Source: Alphaproteobacteria bacterium
GTDB lineage: Bacteria > Pseudomonadota > Alphaproteobacteria > Micavibrionales > Micavibrionaceae
NCBI GenBank assembly: GCA_030426925.1
Contig: JAUHXT010000004.1
Coordinates: forward strand, 1 to 45,848
Reading direction: 5' to 3'
Length of the DNA: 45,848 nucleotides
This document shows, in pieces, positions 4,366 to 43,939 of this stretch. Both the position numbers and the translations under genes were made by a program. Under the pieces are notes generated by a model that searched no databases, had not been told where the DNA came from, and saw nothing but the letters and a program-made list of their open reading frames with translations. The number at the start of each line of letters is the position of its first letter. Positions within the stretch are counted from its first letter, which is position 1.

Positions 4366-4986
4366 CTACGCGGCCAGTTTCATCGGCCCTTTTTCAAAGA
4401 GTTCGCCGACATAATCCCAGTTTATCAGGCTGTCCACGAAGGCTTCGAGGTATTTGGGGCGCGCATTGCGGTAGTCGATGTAATAGGAATGTTCCCAGAC
4501 ATCGCAGCCCAGAAGCGCGGTTTTACCATGAACGACCGGGTTTTCACCGTTCGGTGTTTTCATGATTTCAAGCTTGCCGGAATTGTTATCCATGGCAAGC
4601 CAGCACCAGCCGGAGCCGAACTGGCCGACGCCGGCTTCGATGAATTTGGACTTAAAGCCGTCATAGCCGCCGAGGTCTTCGGCGATTTTCTTTTCCAGCG
4701 CGCCGGGAATTGACGTGCCGCCGCCATTCTGTTTCATCCATCTCCAGAAATGGATGTGGTTGAAATGCTGGCCCAGCTGATTAAACAGGCCGGGGTTATT
4801 TTTGTATGCCCAGACCATGGCTTCTTCGAGGGAGGCATTTTCCTGCCCCGTACCGGCAATCAGTTCGTTCCCCTTCACAACATAGGCGTTGTGGTGCTTG
4901 TCATGGTGGAATTCCAGGGTTTCGGCGGACATGTACGGATCCAGCGCGTCATAGGCGTATGGCAGGTCCGGTAATTCGAAAGGCAT
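4366..4986 (-). CDS. sodB: Superoxide dismutase, iron type
   Basis: This cytoplasmic enzyme converts superoxide to peroxide and oxygen. The 206-residue length is normal. Metal ligands visible by alignment to the family are H27 (in EFHHDKHHNAY), H77 (in GQHFNHIHFW), D162 and H166 (in CDVWEHSYYIDY). Gln73, one helical turn before the second His, is the residue that marks iron rather than manganese enzymes, so I call the Fe type; cambialistic activity cannot be excluded. AGGAG lies well placed before the ATG, and a TTCATA-N17-TATAAA promoter lies upstream on the same strand. It is inserted, in opposite orientation, between the Mth938-type and phytoene-synthase-like genes that are often adjacent. 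Confidence 0.95.
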   Translation of the reverse strand: MPFELPDLPYAYDALDPYMSAETLEFHHDKHHNAYVVKGNELIAGTGQENASLEEAMVWAYKNNPGLFNQLGQHFNHIHFWRWMKQNGGGTSIPGALEKKIAEDLGGYDGFKSKFIEAGVGQFGSGWCWLAMDNNSGKLEIMKTPNGENPVVHGKTALLGCDVWEHSYYIDYRNARPKYLEAFVDSLINWDYVGELFEKGPMKLAA

Positions 4987-12357: not shown

Positions 12358-13773
12358 ATGCCTTCCAGATTGTTTTTATTTTCAGTATTGACCATGTTTT
12401 TTTCCCTTGCCGGGTTTGCCGTTATGGCTTCCAGCGGAGGAGAAGAAGGCGGTGGTATGAAAAGCATGAGTATGGTGGACCACCCCGGAGCGATTCTGTG
12501 TCTGGTGATCTTTGTTTTGTCATATCTTGCCGTTTTGCTGGAAGAACGCACACATTTGCGTAAATCCAAGCCCGTTATGCTGGGGGCAGGGCTTATTTGG
12601 GTGACGATCGGTATTATGGCGCCGGATTACGATATCAGCCATGATGAGGTTCATACTGCCGTTTTGCACGGGTTGGAAGAATACGGATCGTTGTTGTTGT
12701 TCCTTCTGGCCGCCATGACGTATATCGCCGCGCTTCAAAACCGTATGGTTTTCGCGGCATTGCGTGCGAAGCTGGTGCAGGCGGGGCTGAATATGCGGCA
12801 GTTGTTCTGGGTTACCGGGTTTTTTGCGTTTTTCCTGTCGCCGATCGCCGATAACCTGACGACTGCGCTGGTTCTGGGGGCGGTGGTGATGGCCGTGGGT
12901 GCGAACGACCCTAAGTTTGTCGCCATAGCCTGTGTTAACATCGTAAGTGCGGCCAATGCGGGTGGGGCGTTTTCGCCGTTTGGAGACATTACGACCCTGA
13001 TGGTATGGCAGGCAGGGAAAGTGGAATTTTTTGATTTCTTCCCGCTGTTTATTCCGTCGCTGGTTTGTTTCCTTGTTCCGGCCTTTATCATGAGCTTTTT
13101 TGTGAATCCCCATAAACCGCTGGCCGTGAGGGACAAAATCCGGATCAAGAGGGGCGGAAAAGGTATTATCGTTCTTGGCCTTCTGACCATTTCTATGGCG
13201 GTTGGGTTTGAACAGATGCTGGGTCTGCCGCCCTTTATCGGGATGATGACCGGTATGTCGATCCTGATGATCTGGGCGTTCCTGGTGCGTAAACTGGGCA
13301 AGGAGCGGGACCCGGAGTTTGATATCCTGAAGACCGTTGCCCTGGCCGAATGGGATACGCTGTTGTTTTTCTTTGGTGTTATTTTCAGCGTTGGCGGCCT
13401 GACCTTTATCGGTTATCTCGAGATTGCATCCAGTGCAATGTACGAAGGATGGGGCCAGACACCGACAAATATCATGATGGGCTTTGCATCCGCCATTATC
13501 GACAATATCCCGGTGATGTTTGCCGTGCTGTCCATGAACCCGCCGCTGGATGAGTTCCAGTGGCTGCTTGTGACCCTGACCTGCGGTGTGGGCGGTAGTA
13601 TGCTATCTATCGGCTCGGCTGCCGGGGTGGCGCTGATGGGGGTTGCCCGCGGACAGTACACGTTCTTTACGCACCTGAAATGGTCCCCGGTGATACTGAT
13701 TGGCTTTTCCGTTTCTATCTGGGTGCACTTCCTTGTGAATGGCGGGAACGAAGCTCTCAAGGTCATCCATTAA
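12358..13773 (+). CDS. nhaD: Na+/H+ antiporter NhaD
   Basis: This is an inner-membrane sodium(lithium)/proton antiporter of the NhaD family (ion transporter superfamily). The 471-residue protein starts with a cleavable-looking hydrophobic segment, then about 11-12 membrane helices. The family signature is intact: FLSPIADNLTTALVLGAV and SAANAGGAFSPFGDITTLMVWQ, with polar Asp/Asn/Thr residues in the middle of helices; a second inverted half carries ASAIIDNIPVMFAV and GVGGSMLSIGSAAGVALMG. AGGA lies before the ATG. It suggests a sodium-containing or alkaline habitat. A structured repeat follows its stop. Confidence 0.95.
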   Translation: MPSRLFLFSVLTMFFSLAGFAVMASSGGEEGGGMKSMSMVDHPGAILCLVIFVLSYLAVLLEERTHLRKSKPVMLGAGLIWVTIGIMAPDYDISHDEVHTAVLHGLEEYGSLLLFLLAAMTYIAALQNRMVFAALRAKLVQAGLNMRQLFWVTGFFAFFLSPIADNLTTALVLGAVVMAVGANDPKFVAIACVNIVSAANAGGAFSPFGDITTLMVWQAGKVEFFDFFPLFIPSLVCFLVPAFIMSFFVNPHKPLAVRDKIRIKRGGKGIIVLGLLTISMAVGFEQMLGLPPFIGMMTGMSILMIWAFLVRKLGKERDPEFDILKTVALAEWDTLLFFFGVIFSVGGLTFIGYLEIASSAMYEGWGQTPTNIMMGFASAIIDNIPVMFAVLSMNPPLDEFQWLLVTLTCGVGGSMLSIGSAAGVALMGVARGQYTFFTHLKWSPVILIGFSVSIWVHFLVNGGNEALKVIH

Positions 13774-13781
13774 CCTTCCAT

Positions 13782-13855
13782 AGTTTTGTCTGGATTACGC
13801 CGTGGCGTCACTCATGCATATCATGTGCATATCGTTCCTTGCGCCTGCTCAAAAT
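13782..13855. repeat. Structured intergenic repeat, copy A
   Basis: The conserved core is at 13805-13843: GCGTCACTCATG, an inner hairpin (ATGCA / TGCAT around a short loop), then ATCGTTCCTTGCG. Weak outer arms TTTTG (13784-13788) and CAAAA (13850-13854) pair across the element. It lies between the convergent nhaD and mutS genes. Related copies are at 24063-24142 and 43821-43899. Confidence 0.65.
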
Positions 13856-13871
13856 GAAATACTCTTCACGT

Positions 13872-16550
13872 TTAATCTGACGATAAAAGTTTCAGTTGAT
13901 AGAGGACGTCGAGGGCTTCGCGGGGCGTGAGGGTGTCGGGGTCGACGGTGGCCAGTTTTTGTTCGAGTTCCGAAGCTTGCGGCTGTTCGGGGGCTTGCGC
14001 GGTGAAAAGCGGCAGGTCGTCGGCGAGTTTGGTGAGGGACGCGGAATGTTCGCCCTTTTGCAGTAAATCGAGCACGGCCTGTGCGCGGTCAATGACGGGT
14101 TTCGGCAGGCCGGCGAGTTTGGCGACATGAATGCCGTAGGAGCGGTCTGCCGTGCCTTCGGCCACAGAGTGCAGGAACACCACATCACCTTTCCATTCCT
14201 TTACCTGCATCGAATGGCAGGACAGGGCGGGGAGTTTTTCTTTCAGCGAGGTGAGTTCGTGGTAGTGCGTTGCGAACAGGCCGCGGCATTTGTTGACTTC
14301 ATGTAAATTCTCAACACAGGCCCAGGCGATGGACAGGCCGTCAAAGGTTGCCGTGCCGCGTCCGATTTCATCGAGAATGACGAGCGAGCGCTGGGTCGCC
14401 TGATTTAAAATCGTGGCGGTTTCAACCATTTCGACCATGAAGGTCGAGCGTCCGCGCGCGAGGTCATCGGCTGCGCCGACACGGGAAAAACAGCGGTCGA
14501 CGAGGCCGATATGTGCGGTATCCGCCGGAACGAAGGAGCCGATTTGCGCGAGGATGGCGATAAGCGCGTTTTGCCGCAGGAAGGTGGATTTACCGGCCAT
14601 GTTTGGGCCGGTCAGAAGCCACAGGCGGTTATTGTCCGATAAATTGCAATCGTTTGGCGTGAATTGTTCGTTTTGTTTTTGAAGGGCGCGTTCAACAACC
14701 GGGTGGCGTCCACCAACAATATCGAAGGCAAGGGTGTCATCGATTTTTGGCCGTGTGTAATTTTCAGTTATTGCCAGTTCGGCCAGTGCGGCATAGACAT
14801 CGAGCGACGCAAGGCCGCGGGCGATTGTTCCAATGTTTTCGGCGTTTTGGGTGACGGCATCGCAAAACTGCATGAAGAATTCGAGTTCGAGAGCGATGGA
14901 TTTTTCGGCCGCCGAGGCAATATCACGTTCGAGTTCGGACAGTTCCGCCGTCGTAAAGCGCACATTGTTGGCCAAGGTTTGGCGATGGATAAAGGGGTTG
15001 TCGGTATCGCCGTCCTTTATCATCAGTTTGTCGGCGTGGCGGGCGGTGACATCAATAAAGTAGCCGAGGACATTGTTATAAGCGATTTTCAGGCCGTCTA
15101 TGCCGGTCAGTTTTTTGTATTTGGTCTGCAGTTCGGCAATCAGCCGTTTGCTTTCATCACGTAAGGATTTGAGTTCATCGAGTTTATGTGCATAGCCTTT
15201 GCGGATAAAGCCGCCGTCCCGTTCCATGGCGGGGAGGTCGTCGTTTAACGCCTTCGTCAGTAGATCCTTTAGTTCCTGAATATTATTGTTTTGTGCCAAT
15301 GATATGGCGATGGTTTTTAAAGCGGGAACATCATCGAATTGTAACAACTGAACACGGATGGTTTCGGCTTGCGCCAGCCCGTCACGGACCATGCCGAGGT
15401 CGCGCGGGCCGCCACGGCCAACGGCGATGCGGGCGAGGGCGCGTTCTATATCAGGAACAGATTTGAGCATATCGCGCATGGCGGTACGCAAAGGGGCGTT
15501 ATCGGTGAAGGCCTGGATGCTGTCCTGCCGCGCCAGGATTTCTGTGAGGTTCGTGGATGGCGCGGAGAGTATGGATTGTAGTTTACGTGCGCCAGCGCCC
15601 GTGATGGTACGGTCGATGGTTTCAAGCAAAGAGCCCTTACGTTCGCCGGACAATGTGCGGATGAGTTCGAGGTTCGCGCGGGTGGACGCGTCGATGTCCA
15701 TGACATCGTTTGCCGCGACCCGATGCAATGGTGACAAGCGCGGCATTTTGCCCTTTTGCGTGCGTGTCACGTAGTCAATCAATGCGCCTGCGCTTGCGAC
15801 TTCCGCGCGGGAGAATGCGCCGAATGATTCCAGCGTGCCGACGCCGAACATGGATTCCAGCCGTTTTTGCGCGTTTTGGGAATCGAAGAGCGAAGCAGGC
15901 TGGGCCGAGATATTTTCAAATTCGATTCCGGAGAGTTTTTCAGAAACCAGAAGTTCGCTTGGCGCGATACGGGCGAGGGACGCGGGCAGGGTATCGGGTG
16001 ATACGGGCTGGACGCTGAATTCCCCGGTCGACATATCAAGCCAGGCAAGGCCGATTTGCCCGCCGACATCACAGGCGGCGGCGAGGTAATTGTTTTCGCG
16101 GGCATCGAGCAGGGTGTCTTCGGTCAATGTGCCTTGCGTTACCACGCGCACAACATCGCGGTGGACGAGGGCTTTGGACGCCGGTTTGCCTTCGGCCTTT
16201 GCGCGCGCCTTTGCCTGATCCGGTGTTTCGGATTGTTCGCAAATTGCGACCTTGAATCCAGACCGGATGAGTTTTTCGAGATAGGGTTCGTAGGAATGAT
16301 AGGGAACACCGCACATGGAAATATCGCCGCCCTGTGATTTGCCGCGTTTGGTTAGCGTGATATCCAGTGTTTCGGCGGCCTGAACTGCATCATCGTAAAA
16401 CAGTTCGTAAAAGTCACCCATGCGGTAGAAGAGCAGGCAGTCCGGATATTGCGCCTTTAGCGCATGATACTGCGCCATCATCGGCGTATGGCCGTCGGCA
16501 ATATACTCATCGGCCGTTTTCGGCGGTTCTTTCAGGGCTGTTTGTGACAT
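13872..16550 (-). CDS. mutS: DNA mismatch repair protein MutS
   Basis: MutS finds mismatches and small loops and starts methyl-directed-type repair with MutL. The 892-residue protein is full length. The mismatch-reading Phe-x-Glu motif is F47-Y48-E49 in [13 protein letters not shown]. The connector, lever and clamp domains follow, and the C-terminal ABC-type ATPase has Walker [16 protein letters not shown], the signature region [16 protein letters not shown] and Walker [23 protein letters not shown], then ATHYHEL. The extreme C-terminus ([17 protein letters not shown]) is the tetramerisation helix. It stands alone on the minus strand; mutL is not in the window. Confidence 0.97.
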
Positions 16551-18802: not shown

Positions 18803-19087
18803 TTAGTGTTCGTCGCCGTGGCCTTCTTCTTCATGGTGCTCTTCGGCAGCGTCAGCGGCGTCATCAGCGGCTTCTTCTGTAGCTTCTTCAGCACAGTCGT
18901 GTTCTTCGCCTTCCGCATGCTCAGCATCGTCAGCACAATCTTCAGCCGGTGCAGCCTCAGCATCATCTGCATGCTCTTCAGTAGCGGCTTCTTCGCCATG
19001 GTCATCAGCCAAAGCAGAATTTTGCATGGCCGGCAGTGCGAAACCCAGAGTCATCAGGGCGAACAGAAGTAAAGTCAGGTCTTTCAT
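18803..19087 (-). CDS. Secreted, very acidic His-rich small protein
   Basis: No family recognised. The start at 19087 is chosen because AAAGGA lies upstream and the product then begins with a typical signal peptide (MKDLTLLLFALMTLGFALPA, cut probably after SALA). The mature part, about 65 residues, is almost only Glu, Asp, Ala and His with two Cys (EDCADDAEH, EEHDCAEE) and ends EEHHEEEGHGDEH. Such composition suggests an unstructured or helical periplasmic protein that may bind metal ions; that is inference from composition only. It has its own terminator on the downstream side and another just upstream, so it is probably transcribed alone. Confidence 0.6.
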   Translation of the reverse strand: MKDLTLLLFALMTLGFALPAMQNSALADDHGEEAATEEHADDAEAAPAEDCADDAEHAEGEEHDCAEEATEEAADDAADAAEEHHEEEGHGDEH

Positions 19088-19143
19088 CGATGTATCCTTT
19101 TGTACGATTGTTAAACTGTGAGTTGAGATTGTGGGAGAGTCTT

Positions 19144-19179
19144 CAAAAAAATCAAGCCCTTTTGCATACACAAAAGGGC
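19144..19179 (-). terminator. Intrinsic terminator of the Ala/Glu-rich membrane protein gene
   Basis: GCCCTTTTG (19156-19164) and CAAAAGGGC (19171-19179) form a perfect 9-bp stem with a 6-base loop. On the minus strand it is followed by TTGATTTTTTTG, a strong T-run. It lies 33 bases after the stop of the gene at 19212-19754. Confidence 0.85.
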
Positions 19180-19211
19180 CTGATAACAAATTATTTGATG
19201 TTTATCGACGA

Positions 19212-19754
19212 TTAGAAGTCGATAGCGTCATCCATTTTTTCTTTGGCTTCTTCAGCATCGCCAGCGGCAGGTGTTTCTTCAGAAATTTCCTCAGCAGCGT
19301 CTTTTGCCATTTCTTCTACTTTTTCAGCAGCGTCTTCGGCGGCTTCAGCAGCTTCTTCAGCAACATCAGCAGCTTCTTCGGCCATGTCTGTACCTTCAGC
19401 TTTTTCTGCGGCGGCTTCTGCAGCATCAGCAGCTTCTTCCATAGCTTCAGCGGCTTCTTCTTCCGGAGTTTCCGCCATTGCATCAGCAGCGTCTTCTTTC
19501 AGCGCTTCGATGCCTTCAGCTGTTGCATCTGCAGCGTCTTCCGCTGTGTCAGATACTGACTGGATCATGTCGTCTGTTGCTTCACCTGCTGCGGCAGCCG
19601 CATCATCGATTGCATCCATCATGCTTTCGCCAGCAGCCGGCTCCATTGAAGCCATTTCGCTGCCTGTTACGTTTTTGTAGATTACCTGCATGACTGCGAT
19701 ACCGGCTACCAGTACAACAGCAGCAAATACTACTGATTTCACGATGTTATTCAT
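19212..19754 (-). CDS. Membrane-anchored Ala/Glu/Asp-rich helical protein
   Basis: No family recognised. The 180-residue protein has one N-terminal hydrophobic segment (SVVFAAVVLVAGIAVMQVIY, residues ~7-26) as a membrane anchor, then a long highly acidic domain built almost entirely of Ala, Glu, Asp, Met and Lys, with quasi-repeats such as EEAADVAEEAAEAAEDAAEK. This predicts a long single helix or coiled coil in the periplasm. GGAAGGA precedes the ATG and a strong terminator follows the stop. It shares composition with the next gene on the same strand and with the lipoprotein at 3014-3970, but low complexity prevents a claim of homology. Confidence 0.65.
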   Translation of the reverse strand: MNNIVKSVVFAAVVLVAGIAVMQVIYKNVTGSEMASMEPAAGESMMDAIDDAAAAAGEATDDMIQSVSDTAEDAADATAEGIEALKEDAADAMAETPEEEAAEAMEEAADAAEAAAEKAEGTDMAEEAADVAEEAAEAAEDAAEKVEEMAKDAAEEISEETPAAGDAEEAKEKMDDAIDF

Positions 19755-23406: not shown

Positions 23407-24054
23407 ATGCTTCGTACTCTTTTATTTTCAGCCCTGTTATTGTTTCCTGCCGCCGCGAAAGCGGATTATTTCCTGTGGGAGGACCCGGTCAGCCATTTGA
23501 CCATCACGTTCCCCGATACATGGAAAACAGCGCATAATCAGAAACCGGATGATATTTTGACCATTCTTGGCCCGTCGGAGCACGGTTTTCCCAAGTGCGT
23601 CGTTAAAACACGCGATGACAAGCGGTACGTGATTTTCCCGCCGCAATACGGGCGTTCGATACAAAATGAGGCGGTGAGTAGTGGTTTCTGGAAAACGTAT
23701 CTGGACGAATATCAGGATTATAACCTTGCCAAGGTCGTGGACGATGCGGGGCTTGGGCGCTGGCATGCGTCCTATGCGCTGGCCGGTTACACGGATTATG
23801 ACGGACGCGTGTTTGAAAAGCGCCGTTCCATCATGTTTGCGTCGCTGTATTACGACACGATGTATATTTTAGAATGTTCCGCATTGGAGCATGCCTATGA
23901 AGACTGGTATTTCCCGTTCATGAGCATCGTGAAATCCGTCGATTTCCGCAAGATGTACAACGAAGTGCCAAGCGGCCATTACCGTAACTTCATGAAGAAG
24001 GCGGAGCGGTATTTTTGGGTTCAGGGTCGCCCAGACGGCGTCACCGGCTACTAG
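23407..24054 (+). CDS. Secreted protein of unknown function
   Basis: The 215-residue protein has a signal peptide (MLRTLLFSALLLFPAAAKA, cut before DYF). The mature part begins DYFLWEDPVSHLTITFPDTWKT, which by eye resembles the first strand and Trp-containing turn of the PsbP/Mog1 fold; this is weak. Two cysteines (FPKCVV, ILECSA) could form a disulfide. The rest alternates short aromatic-rich strands (YDTMYILE, YEDWYFPFMS). No catalytic motif is visible. It has its own predicted promoter and is followed by a copy of the structured repeat, so it is probably a single-gene unit. Confidence 0.65.
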   Translation: MLRTLLFSALLLFPAAAKADYFLWEDPVSHLTITFPDTWKTAHNQKPDDILTILGPSEHGFPKCVVKTRDDKRYVIFPPQYGRSIQNEAVSSGFWKTYLDEYQDYNLAKVVDDAGLGRWHASYALAGYTDYDGRVFEKRRSIMFASLYYDTMYILECSALEHAYEDWYFPFMSIVKSVDFRKMYNEVPSGHYRNFMKKAERYFWVQGRPDGVTGY

Positions 24055-24062
24055 GCTTCCAT

Positions 24063-24142
24063 CCTTTCATTTGGGATGCGTTGCTGCGTCACTCGTGTAC
24101 GTCATGTACACTTCGCTCCTTGCGACTGTCCCAAATAAAAGG
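24063..24142. repeat. Structured intergenic repeat, copy B
   Basis: This is the best-preserved copy. The outer arms are CCTTTCATTTGGGA (24063-24076) and TCCCAAATAAAAGG (24129-24142), paired at 13 of 14 positions. The core at 24086-24124 is GCGTCACTC, an inner hairpin GTGTAC-GTCAT-GTACAC, then TTCGCTCCTTGCG. It lies nine bases after the stop of the secreted orphan, upstream of nfu. The overall shape is a long stem with internal loops. Confidence 0.75.
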
Positions 24143-24230
24143 CTGTTTGCCTGATTTCACGGACCTTAATAATTGAATTTTGATGCGTAAAAGCATTGAA
24201 AAAGAGGCCGGATCGGCCTATGTCAGGGGC

Positions 24231-24782
24231 ATGTTTATTCAAACCGAAAATACGCCGAACCCGGCAGTTGTGAAGTTCCTGCCCGGTCAGCCCGTTATGG
24301 ACAAGGGCGTGGCAGAGTTTAAAACCCGTGACGATGGTGGGCGATCGCCGCTGGCCGAGCGGCTGTTTGCGCTGGAAGGGGTTGAGGGTGTTTTCTTCGG
24401 GCAGGACTTTGTGTCCGTTACCAAAAGTGATGCGATGGGATGGGACCTATTAAAGCCGCGCATCCTTGGCGTTATCATGGAGCATTTCACCACGGGCCAG
24501 CCGTTGTTCCGCGACGGCGTTATAGCTGACGAAGCGGGCGGGGCAGAAGACGACCCGATTTCTGCACAGATCCGCGAGTTGATCGATACCCGCGTGCGGC
24601 CGATGGTGGCGCAGGACGGCGGAGATATCGTGTTCGAGAGGTTCGAGGACGGGATTGCGTATTTACACATGCGGGGCGCGTGTTCCGGATGCCCGAGTGC
24701 GACCATGACGTTAAAATCCGGGATCGAGAATATGTTACGGCATTATGTGCCGGAAGTTTTAGAGGTCAGACCGGTCGAATAA
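24231..24782 (+). CDS. nfuA: NifU-like iron-sulfur scaffold/carrier (Nfu)
   Basis: Nfu proteins carry Fe-S clusters to target enzymes. The start at 24231 gives MFIQTENTPNPAVVKFLPG, the canonical N-terminus of the alphaproteobacterial/mitochondrial NFU1 type; in-frame starts at 24180/24183 would add 16-17 residues that do not fit. The N-terminal domain ends near residue 90 and the C-terminal NifU domain (RVRPMVAQDGGDIVFERF) carries the cluster-binding CxxC in GACSGCPSATMTLKSGIEN. The 183-residue length is typical of NFU1 rather than E. coli NfuA. It stands alone; downstream is the convergent NodB-fold gene. Confidence 0.93.
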   Translation: MFIQTENTPNPAVVKFLPGQPVMDKGVAEFKTRDDGGRSPLAERLFALEGVEGVFFGQDFVSVTKSDAMGWDLLKPRILGVIMEHFTTGQPLFRDGVIADEAGGAEDDPISAQIRELIDTRVRPMVAQDGGDIVFERFEDGIAYLHMRGACSGCPSATMTLKSGIENMLRHYVPEVLEVRPVE

Positions 24783-24862
24783 TTTTCAGCCCTGCCATCG
24801 TTAATCGCCGCTTACGTATAAATAATACGCTGTGCTCCTCTTGCCTTGTCAGGAGTAAAAAT

Positions 24863-25945
24863 CTAAGGGAGCAGGGGGACGTCTTCGGTTATTGCAGGTT
24901 CGGTATAAGTGAAGAGCAGGCCGAACCAGCGCCAGATCGTTTCACCGTTATCGTTTTTTCCGGCCGGCAGGGTGCAGTTGATACGCGCGCGATCTTCGGT
25001 AAAGGGCTGTGAGAGGCGCAGTTCAAAGCGGTCTTCGCCCAGTTTTTCAACTGCCGGTTTGTCCTGGTTGCTGGCGTAGCAGCCAAGGTTTTCAGCCGCG
25101 CCAGCAAAATCCGGGTGCAGGGTAAAGCCGATAGCGGGCGGGTTATCCATCACCACGGTTGTTGCGGGTTGCACATCTGATACGGGCAGGGGCTTTGCCT
25201 GCGCCGCCATGCGGAAGCGTTCAAGATCGCCATAAGCATCGGTCATTAAAAAGCGGGGCAGGGCCGAGAGGTCCGAGCCGTTATAGGTGACGCCTGAATT
25301 CTGGCCCATAGTGGCGGTAAAGTTATAGTCCGTCAGAATACCGGCGTAAGACGCATCAAATTCCCCGAACGGGTAGGCGAAGAAGTCCGGGCGCGCGCCG
25401 AGGTGTTTTTCAAAATCGCCAAGCGCGGTATTCAGGTTTTTGCGGATCGCGGTGTCGCCTTCGCTATACAGGGCGGCATAAGAGGCCGGGTGCATGCCGA
25501 TGGTGGCAAGACCGGAGTGGCCAAGTTTTTTTATGTCTTCCCAGTTCATATACTGACCGCCGGATTCTCCCGCCTGATTTGCCGCGATAAAAACCGTATA
25601 GGGAAAGCCGTGCTCTTCGAGTAACGGCAAAGCATTTTCCAGAACCGAGCGGTAACCGCCATCAAAGGTCAGAACCACCGCGTTCGTTGGTAAAGGAGTA
25701 TCAGTCTTTAGCGCGTTTACAAGGTCAGGCAGTGAAACGACGTTGTAATTGCCATCGGCCAGTTCCTGAATATGCGCGGCGAAAACCGTGGTGGAGAGGT
25801 TGCTGTCGGGGTAGGCGTCTTCGCCAATCCGGTAATACGCGAAAACGGTCGCGGAGATACGGTCATAATCGTTAAACGGACCGGCCATGGCGGCGGACGG
25901 CGCAGCCATGCACAACATTGCGATGATAACGAAAAGGCGTGACAT
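24863..25945 (-). CDS. Polysaccharide deacetylase-like (NodB-fold) secreted protein, altered active site
   Basis: A signal peptide (MSRLFVIIAMLCMAAPSAAMA) precedes a NodB homology domain closest in style to PgaB-like deacetylases: AVVLTFDGGYRSVLENALPLLEEHGFPYTVFIAA, ATIGMHPASYA and FFAYPFGEFD. In active enzymes motif 1 is TFDD and motif 2 is HxxxH; here the metal-binding second Asp is Gly (TFDGG) and the second His of motif 2 is replaced by Tyr. Two metal ligands therefore appear to be missing, so it may be a non-catalytic binder or have changed chemistry. Residues ~265-360 are an extra C-terminal region with two Cys. It is monocistronic. Confidence 0.8.
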   Translation of the reverse strand: MSRLFVIIAMLCMAAPSAAMAGPFNDYDRISATVFAYYRIGEDAYPDSNLSTTVFAAHIQELADGNYNVVSLPDLVNALKTDTPLPTNAVVLTFDGGYRSVLENALPLLEEHGFPYTVFIAANQAGESGGQYMNWEDIKKLGHSGLATIGMHPASYAALYSEGDTAIRKNLNTALGDFEKHLGARPDFFAYPFGEFDASYAGILTDYNFTATMGQNSGVTYNGSDLSALPRFLMTDAYGDLERFRMAAQAKPLPVSDVQPATTVVMDNPPAIGFTLHPDFAGAAENLGCYASNQDKPAVEKLGEDRFELRLSQPFTEDRARINCTLPAGKNDNGETIWRWFGLLFTYTEPAITEDVPLLP

Positions 25946-42485: not shown

Positions 42486-43810
42486 GCGAGCCACGGATAA
42501 AGAAAATCCTGCCGCGCAGCCTGCTGGGCCGTTCCATGATGATTTTGGTGACGCCGGTGCTGATTATCCAGGCGTTCACGACCTTCATGTTTTTTGACCG
42601 GCACTGGGATACAGTGACAGAGCGCATGGCCTTTGCCCTAGCCGGAGAAGTCGCCATTATTGCAGACCGGTATGAGAAAGACCCGTCGCCGCAAAGCGTT
42701 GAAATGGTTACAGGTTATGTGTCGGAATACCTGGACGTCGATGTGCGGTTCGAGCCGGGCGCGGCGATTACACAAAAGCAGCCCCACTATGTTTTCTGGG
42801 CCAAAATTGTTGCGGATTCACTGTCGCATGCGCTGGATGAAAAACTGAGAAAGCCGCACAATATTACGCTGTCCATTCCGGAAAAATGGCTGGAAATCGA
42901 TATCCAGCTAGATAACGGGGTGCTGCATGTTTCTGCGCCGATCCGGCGGCTGTTTTCATCGTCGAGTTATATTTTCCTTTTATGGATGATCGGGTCGTCG
43001 ATCATGATGCTGGTGATCGCGATTATATTCATGCGCAACCAGATACGCCCGATCCGTAAGCTGGCCGTTGCAGCGGAGCGGTTCGGTAAGGGGCAGGACG
43101 TGTTGTTCCTGAAGCCGTCCGGTGCGCGGGAAGTGCGGGCGGCAACACGCGCGTTCCTGACCATGAAAGAACGGCTGGACCGCCAGATACAACAACGCAC
43201 ATCGATGCTGGCCGGGGTTTCACACGATTTGCGCACACCATTGACGCGTATAAAAATTGAGCTGGAAATGATGGGGGAGCGCGAGGACGTATCAAACCTG
43301 AAACAGGACCTGGAAGACATGGAGCGCATGATCGATGCGTACCTGGAATTTGTGCGCGGAGAAGGCGATGAAGAATTACAGCGTGTGGATTTGAAGGATT
43401 TTACAAACGGTGTTGTCGATGGAATGTTGCGTTCGGACCATAATATCCATTGTAATATAGAAGAGGGTGTATCCATTATGTTGCGCCCGGTTGCGTTTCA
43501 GCGTTGCCTGAATAACCTCATCGGTAATGCGCTGAAATACGCAGAAAATGTGTGGGTTGATGGGTTCAAGACGCAGCAAAATACCGTTCTTATCCTTATA
43601 GAAGATGACGGGCCGGGGGTCGATGCACAGCATTACGAGGATTTGTTCCGACCATTTTTCCGGTTAGAGACATCGCGCAATAAAAAAACAGGTGGTATCG
43701 GCCTTGGCTTGCCGATCGCACAAGATATTGTCAACGGGCATGGCGGGGACATATCACTTGATAAAGGGAGTAAGGGCGGTCTGCGCGTGCGGATCGAATT
43801 ACCTTTATAG
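42482..43810 (+). CDS. EnvZ-like sensor histidine kinase
   Basis: Layout: membrane helix 1 at about residues 19-38, a periplasmic sensor region of ~120 residues, membrane helix 2 at about 163-184, HAMP (RNQIRPIRKLAVAAERFGKG), HisKA with phospho-acceptor H248 in AGVSHDLRTPLTRIKIELEMM, and the HATPase domain with the N box NLIGNALKYAE, G1 EDDGPGVD and G2 GGIGLGLPIAQDIVNGHGG. The DHp motif HDLRTPLTRIK matches EnvZ closely. Length 442 is normal. It is translationally coupled to the preceding regulator and followed by a copy of the structured repeat. Confidence 0.95.
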   Translation: MSEPRIKKILPRSLLGRSMMILVTPVLIIQAFTTFMFFDRHWDTVTERMAFALAGEVAIIADRYEKDPSPQSVEMVTGYVSEYLDVDVRFEPGAAITQKQPHYVFWAKIVADSLSHALDEKLRKPHNITLSIPEKWLEIDIQLDNGVLHVSAPIRRLFSSSSYIFLLWMIGSSIMMLVIAIIFMRNQIRPIRKLAVAAERFGKGQDVLFLKPSGAREVRAATRAFLTMKERLDRQIQQRTSMLAGVSHDLRTPLTRIKIELEMMGEREDVSNLKQDLEDMERMIDAYLEFVRGEGDEELQRVDLKDFTNGVVDGMLRSDHNIHCNIEEGVSIMLRPVAFQRCLNNLIGNALKYAENVWVDGFKTQQNTVLILIEDDGPGVDAQHYEDLFRPFFRLETSRNKKTGGIGLGLPIAQDIVNGHGGDISLDKGSKGGLRVRIELPL

Positions 43811-43820
43811 AACTGCCATC

Positions 43821-43899
43821 GTTTCCGTCCGGCGGCGTCACTGCGTCACTCATGTACTATTTGTACACTTCGCTCCTTGTTCCCGGCCGAACAAAAACG
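43821..43899. repeat. Structured intergenic repeat, copy C
   Basis: The core at 43843-43879 is GCGTCACTCATG, inner hairpin TGTAC-TATTT-GTACA, then CTTCGCTCCTTG. The outer arms differ from copies A and B (CCGTCCGG, 43825-43832, against CCGGCCG from 43883) but still pair. The GCGTCACT unit is duplicated in tandem at its left side. It lies just after the kinase stop, before the convergent csaA gene. Confidence 0.65.
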
Positions 43900-43939
43900 C
43901 TGTTTGTTCTAAATCAAATTGATCGAATATATTGAAGAA

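Follow-up and report, generated by a model that had tools for sequence, protein, structure and literature searches.

The question raised by this locus is what kind of element is represented by the structured repeat designated copy B. A preliminary description of the window (the whole stretch of DNA analysed, 45,848 nt, which is an entire contig, C5, of a 2.14-Mb genome held in 111 contigs and 99.84% complete) placed copy B at 24063-24142 and recognised two further copies, A and C. That this repeated structured element is real is borne out by its core pattern, GTCACTC..TCGYTCCTTG, which occurs three times in the window and in 0 of 100 shuffles, and by 47 matches in the genome (E<=1e-3) to a full model, R2, built from 53 copies; a core model, R1, built from five copies, had given 46 places in the genome at E<=10. 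The sequence at 24063-24142 is as first stated, but the element is longer, with a terminal stem (P1) and a 3x3 internal loop lying outside those limits. The features are as follows.

24052-24158, minus strand (the GA strand): copy B, whole match to the R2 model, 107 nt including 5 nt of flank (24154-24158); 108.3 bits, E 6.6e-22.
24052-24056, minus strand: terminal stem P1, 3' strand, partner of 24149-24153; P1 covaries in 53 copies.
24149-24153, minus strand: terminal stem P1, 5' strand; covariation in 53 copies.
24060-24076, minus strand: variable long stem P2, 3' strand, partner of 24129-24145; double-sided changes in 15 of 16 pairs.
24129-24145, minus strand: variable long stem P2, 5' strand, covarying.
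24077-24094, minus strand: conserved core, 3' strand, with many near-invariant columns; contains GAGTGACGC, the complement of GCGTCACTC in the preliminary description.
24112-24128, minus strand: conserved core, 5' strand, with many near-invariant columns; contains CGCAAGGAGCGAA, the complement of the TTCGCTCCTTGCG given previously.
24095-24111, minus strand: inner 6-bp stem (24095-24100 with 24106-24111) and its loop, from folding and covariation.
13771-13877, minus strand: copy A; 61.8 bits, E 6e-11; 21 of 33 pairs.
24772-24878, minus strand: a fourth, diverged copy, absent from the preliminary description; 51 bits, E 2.2e-8.
43809-43915, minus strand: copy C; 104.6 bits, E 4.9e-21; 33 of 33 pairs.

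Copy B retains 31 of the 33 consensus pairs, and the 3' strand of its P1 (24052-24056) overlaps the TAG stop codon (24052-24054) of the upstream plus-strand gene. Copy A is positioned between the convergent CitMHS (plus) and mutS (minus) genes and, once the 5-nt flank is set aside, extends over the final 1-3 nt of each. The fourth copy (24772-24878) fills the gap between the convergent nfu (plus) and deacetylase (minus) genes, and copy C lies between a histidine kinase gene (plus) and a tRNA_bind gene (minus). Folding with RNA parameters gave copy B (24050-24150) z scores of -5.3 on the minus strand and -3.6 on the plus strand (200 shuffles); in correction of the preliminary description, the minus strand is the better folder. 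Under the same parameters copy C is distinct from its shuffles on the minus strand only (z -3.3) and copy A is indistinct on both strands; with DNA parameters, the fourth copy alone does not form a complete rod. Elsewhere in the window (18803-19754), long imperfect repeats in codon register run through two adjoining minus-strand ORFs encoding low-complexity proteins.

The element is an imperfect hairpin of about 105 nt (about 102-107) with near-invariant loops and freely varying stems. Along the GA strand (minus in copy B) the terminal stem of 5 bp is followed by a 3x3 internal loop, a long variable stem, the core and, innermost, a stem of 6 bp closed by a short loop. Hence, the 14-bp arms originally described as 'outer' do exist as a helix, but this is the middle helix, flanked by P1 (24052-24056/24149-24153). 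Similarly, the core described as 'unpaired' does consist of near-invariant loops, yet covarying pairs lie inside it (alignment columns 37-82, 38-81, 44-74 and 45-73). In the GA strand the core presents GA-RY-GA facing GA-RY-GA, stretches that may, judging from their base sequence, form sheared tandem G.A pairs.

Our covariation alignment (A3) holds 53 of the 59 loci L007-L065, omitting L017 and L023, which carry inserts, and L028, L032, L034 and L035, in which the inner strands are swapped. Of its 1744 cells 90.7% pair, whereas shuffles reach 68.3% and slid partners 31-43%, and double-sided changes account for 423 cells compared with 134.5 in shuffles and 52-93 in slid controls. Such changes occur in 30 of the 33 pairs, which upholds the initial picture of conserved loops between variable stems. 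RNAalifold, unaided, recovered a near-identical structure (29 of 32 pairs with double-sided changes), and mutual information, which makes no reference to structure, ranked the same pairs at the top together with two non-canonical couples: columns 36/83 (CA 45, AG 7, other 1) and columns 47/71 (AG 41, CA 8, AA 3, other 1), both among the 53 copies. Two model-fitted alignments, biased towards the structure by their fitting, gave 95.5% of cells paired (68 rows, some shared with the first alignment) and 90.6% (41 rows, mostly from outside the order). With DNA parameters, 140 of 143 copies fold better as the GA strand than as its complement, and with RNA parameters 117 of 143 do so, this set being the 147 copies less the four longer than 115 nt. 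Template switching inside quasi-palindromes could create part of the stem covariation without selection. Base pairing drops to background two to three bases beyond P1; this speaks against P1 being copied from the target, and P1 therefore seems to be part of the element.

Structural variants were also seen. In four copies of the host genome (L028, L032, L034 and L035) the core strands are swapped within an unswapped outer part, as though the loop module had been inverted, and some core-swapped copies sit directly before start codons. Others are 30-60 nt longer through extra internal hairpins: L017 and L023 (C102; L105:2297-2462, 4751-4917), which have a near-identical insert in common, L133:1268-1431 (G058) and L101:5318-5454 (G029).

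Our searches revealed an uneven distribution. Among 14 related genomes the number of R2 matches ranges from 0 to 64, the highest being in G027, and there are none in G022, G076 or G023, each assembled in one to three contigs and closed or nearly so. A match was found in 63 of 104 genomes of the family (R1, scoring the best candidates of each genome), in 80 of 142 genomes of the order (R2), 10 of these outside the family and one of them marginal, and in 27 of 385 genomes of a class-wide sample, 23 of them outside the order. As only the best 51 (R1, family), 27 (R2, order) or 10 (class) candidates per genome were scored, copy numbers in these wide searches are lower bounds and weak copies could be missed. 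In 37 copies from 11 genomes outside the order, the core and form are clear in most and weak in a few (G235, G490). A strict pattern scan with one genome per species returned 17 stretches, every one of them from a record titled Alphaproteobacteria or Micavibrio, a genus that the NCBI taxonomy places under Bdellovibrionota. The first pattern search, of 58 genomes, gave one match besides the host genome (L006 in G054); by eye this resembles a chance match in a different repeat, and G054 has two R2 matches of its own. No match was found in plasmid and phage collections (blastn with single copies) or in viral contigs (strict pattern). At Rfam gathering thresholds the window gave nothing, and 20 copy-bearing loci gave two tRNAs and no family for the element. 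Core strings sought in paper text returned nothing relevant, and among open-licence PMC papers we found no description of the element in this form.

Placement was analysed in 147 copies from 30 genomes (150 minus repeats), a set from which two tandem partners overlapping a neighbour, at C25:6789 and on C59 near 17500, are absent. Head-to-tail pairs about 100 nt apart occur in the host genome, G000 (C25:6789-6996, C59:17519-17685), and in G027 (C44:6311-6516). With the GA strand taken as plus, the neighbours, tRNA genes included, are ++ in 42 cases, +- in 41, -- in 39 and -+ in 13, with one side unknown in 12; these gene calls come from a home-made hexamer caller and certainly include some wrong start codons. 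At its 3' end the GA strand comes within -4 to +3 nt of a stop codon belonging to a gene on the opposite strand in 59 of 84 cases; at the other end a stop codon lies within that distance in 7 of 88. Boundary stops are rich in TAG (TAG 32, TAA 22, TGA 5) relative to all called genes (TAA 522, TAG 193, TGA 171), and therefore the first bases of the element seem to help form the stop codon. In 12 of 57 co-directional cases the element lies 0-4 nt before a start codon, and a few others lie close before a tRNA gene.

TA occurs within a 4-nt window at both ends of 65 of the 147 copies, against 14% per such window in the flanks. Within a burst of 14 G027 copies, inspected by eye, the left-hand TAGTC has TA on its outer side in 10, the right-hand GACTA in 12, and 8 copies have TA on both sides. 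No terminator-like match was found at 13771-13877, 24052-24158 or 24772-24878 (copies A, B and the fourth, which the scan covered), in agreement with the original view that the site is not a simple terminator; T-rich tails occur at 19 and 17 of 147 ends, figures that stand without a background value. A REP of the CGTC-tagged type was considered because the core holds GCGTCACTC; it was rejected, as the tag lies inside the element and no more than 1-2 of 147 copies have a CCA tail. At the hairpin foot GTRG occurs in 3 of 147 copies on each strand, and CGTC in 1 of 147 and 3 of 147. Several placements recur. Copies end a few bases before tRNA-Leu in several genera (L018, L043, L052, by eye, L060, L099, L168 and L172), reflecting either shared old insertions or a hot spot; L115 (G000 C24:23317) and L142 (G058 C102:27810) lie, by eye, at equal distance behind the end of a groEL-like gene in two genera; and one copy (L107:13847-13951) follows by 13 nt the 5S rRNA gene that ends an rRNA operon.

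The element has moved on an evolutionary time scale. The insertions relative to orthologous gaps that the preliminary description had proposed looking for were indeed found as empty sites. The nfu gene was located in 36 of 38 genomes searched, and the nfu loci of 29 relatives hold no copy at E<=1; the host locus holds both nfu-adjacent copies. A deacetylase gene follows nfu in 13 of these 29 loci with a gap of -44 to +119 nt, and in one more with 839 nt; in the remaining loci it was not called beside nfu. The gap comparison for copy B is weaker than that for the nfu-deacetylase gap, because the gene preceding nfu, on its far side, was recognised in one relative only. Gaps in relatives free of the core, coupled with an absence of other copies, had been named as telling against the proposal: these 29 loci do lack a copy, yet the genome carries many others. 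Further empty sites come from within genera. In genus g28, a gap that in G027 measures 118 nt and contains a copy is without one in the loci of 10 congeners, the closest of which has about 18 nt there. A copy in G058 sits exactly at a stop codon where its congener G029 has none, and two other G058 copies are common to G029. The 14 copies of the G027 burst share a mean identity of 93% in flanks that, by eye, are apparently unrelated. The empty sites are too diverged for an exact target duplication to be read.

Orientation follows base composition. The GA strand is the C-rich strand in 126 of 147 copies, and in 52 of the 53 with at least 8 kb of flank; in the host genome 40 of 42 copies agree in polarity. 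When larger G027 flanks were used and G051 was added (91 copies, from four genomes only), the GA strand coincided with the C-rich one in 10 of 15 copies of the G027 burst and in 72 of the 76 others. Subtypes here were assigned by rough regular expressions and used only to separate burst from rest, so that these 15 burst copies differ from the 14-copy identity set; two burst-like G027 copies (C73, C74), counted among the 76, disagree in polarity. Stretches sampled along contig C1 of G029 have a positive GC skew as far as 552 kb from its start and a negative one beyond 599 kb; in them, five copies at 315-397 kb point one way, and six copies plus one weak match at 806-1209 kb point the opposite way. 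All four copies in G051, from another family, agree. G252 lies outside the order; there 5 of 12 copies agree and one of the rest is at near-zero skew, on a chromosome whose skew is mostly two-armed. Most copies in the order are thus strongly polarised, but polarity is weak or missing in the two sets that look youngest, the G027 burst and G252, and is hence not a general rule of insertion. A polarity that follows transcription is not supported, the ++ and -- classes being of nearly equal size.

The strand that carries the rRNA operon is the locally G-rich one, and the G-rich strand was accordingly treated as leading, making the GA strand the leading-strand template; this assignment is based on GC skew and one rRNA operon. 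Bottom strands of attC sites in sedentary integrons are described as having the same preference (25 of 30), which limits excision (Loot et al., PMC5371416). By analogy with that account, loss of wrong-way copies may be one reading of the difference between the burst and the rest; a difference between subfamilies may be another. Some copies in the host genome have a nearest copy of about 0.9 identity, although 40 of 42 share polarity, and such similar copies of uniform polarity are not predicted by a loss model unless loss is fast.

Taken together, our findings describe an element that is repeated, has moved in the past, is maintained as a hairpin by compensatory change and, for most copies in the order, is polarised with GC skew. 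We put at roughly 0.6 the probability that copy B is a non-autonomous mobile DNA element, REPIN/ERIC-like, that acts via single-stranded DNA and whose wrong-way copies are lost. Under this model, the GA strand (minus here) would adopt, as single-stranded DNA, a rod-shaped fold containing two conserved internal-loop modules, and the loops, rather than the stems, would be the recognition site of a putative enzyme supplied in trans. Insertion would target short intergenic gaps, at a TA-containing site or next to one, mostly just behind a stop codon, where the element's first bases would help to restore the interrupted codon. On the lagging-strand template the GA strand would be exposed and able to fold at each replication; copies so placed would be excised, deleted or counter-selected, and the survivors would be those on the leading-strand template. 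Within its host the element is probably mostly neutral. It is tempting to extend this to an alphaproteobacteria-wide family of single-stranded mobile DNA, with a folded rod whose tandem G.A modules would be recognised by a putative recombinase unrelated to RAYT, IS200/IS605 and integrons, and whose copies would survive only with the structured strand facing the leading-strand template; we offer this extension tentatively and think it more doubtful than sound.

Several other explanations have to be weighed. Rather unlikely, in our estimation, is an ordinary double-stranded MITE moved by a TA-targeting DDE transposase (IS630-like), for which polarity and covariation would be secondary. The TA dinucleotides at both ends, in the burst as in the full set, fit such an origin, as does the sharp end of pairing at the element's limits. 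The pneumococcal RUP element, for which IS630-like mobilisation has been proposed, is likewise described as 107 bp long with TA-containing targets (PMC2229807). Nevertheless, the two ends are unlike in their association with stop codons, which symmetric ends would not predict, and a transposase acting on terminal inverted repeats needs no conserved, covarying internal core. Less probable still is a REPIN-like element moved by a RAYT or another HUH Y1 transposase since lost from the genome, even though hairpin, compensatory changes and mobility resemble those described for REPINs (PMC3116915) and the plus strand coincides with what is presumed to be the lagging-strand template, the insertion target described for IS200/IS605 (PMC6006769). 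The preliminary description had suggested a RAYT substrate and a genome-wide search for the enzyme; our enzyme search covered Y1_Tnp (PF01797), which was found neither in the 99.84%-complete host genome nor in G027, despite the 64 matches and recent burst of the latter. This and the near absence of the typical GTRG/CGTC foot tag speak against that suggestion. Y1 matches are present in 5 of 18 genomes tested (G029, G058, G062, G023 and G035), but G023 has zero R2 matches, and six loci around the Y1 matches of these genomes hold no copies. A RAYT may nevertheless act in trans or have since been lost. CGTC REPs are described as prevailing in alphaproteobacteria, occurring in Micavibrio and seeming to have no dedicated transposase (Di Nocera et al., PMC3733652).

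An RNA element, acting in 3'-end processing or as a stabilising or terminating structure at the ends of transcription units, we judge about as improbable as a Y1-moved one. Stop codons adjoin the element, one copy closely follows a 5S rRNA gene, the covariation is as strong as in structured RNA, and some copies lie just before start codons with, by eye, a GGAA-like sequence at the Shine-Dalgarno position. However, the element is antisense to both neighbours about as often as sense, so the better-folding strand is often outside the neighbours' transcripts. Furthermore, in the host genome polarity tracks GC skew in the ++ and -- classes alike, and neither terminator-like matches at copies A, B and the fourth nor an Rfam match were found. 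KOPS and Chi are functional sites kept in one orientation per replichore. The polarity outside the burst would suit a replication or segregation site of that kind, but such a role seems very improbable for an element that shows anything between 0 and 64 matches per genome in the 14 relatives compared, no match at all in G022, G076 or G023, and no clear bias in the burst or in G252.

The element may be compared with known systems. An attC site forms a hairpin behind a stop codon, as does the element, and carries the core sites RYYYAAC and GTTRRRY. This pair was found in 0 of 147 copies on either strand and, whereas attC sites lie in one cassette array, the element is dispersed behind genes such as mutS and a groEL-like gene. 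REPs and REPINs, as described, are likewise non-autonomous, intergenic and dispersed, with hairpins, compensatory changes and positions near the 3' ends of genes, and REP termini are able to supply a TAG stop codon (PMC3733652, PMC3116915). In contrast, the element is a single rod of about 105 nt with a conserved internal-loop core, where a REPIN consists of tagged REPs with a 20-40 nt palindrome; it also lacks a GTAG/GTGG or CGTC foot tag, and no Y1 transposase was found in G000 or G027. Hence, it shares compensatory hairpin, dispersal and mobility with REPINs, and differs in foot tag and in that no Y1 gene flanked by copies was found in the genomes tested. Rickettsia palindromic elements (RPEs) are described as alphaproteobacterial palindromes of about 95-150 bp, many with predicted stem-loops (PMC2229807, PMC3767692, PMC2267715); they are often in frame inside genes, a difference that we draw from their descriptions. 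Some small genomes with matches at class level could be near RPE bearers. In length the element is close to RUP (107 bp) and Bru-RS (103-105 bp), and ERIC, RUP and CIR are listed as having TA at their termini, as many copies of the element do; the available excerpts describing ERIC, RUP, Bru-RS and CIR mention neither non-canonical core loops nor replication polarity (PMC2229807, PMC2267715).

We therefore regard the element as belonging to a general kind already known, that of mobile palindromic repeats under structural constraint, in a form of which our searches of open-licence PMC papers returned no description; kinship with RPE or Bru-RS could lower its novelty. For many small bacterial palindromic repeats the mobilising enzyme and the active form are obscure, and this element is an unusually clear case. 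It offers more than 100 natural variants that resolve the constraints on stems and loops, young and older copies in related genomes, empty sites, and a polarity that differs between the young burst and the other copies. Thus, whether repeats of this kind persist and disappear as single-stranded DNA at the replication fork becomes a directly testable question.
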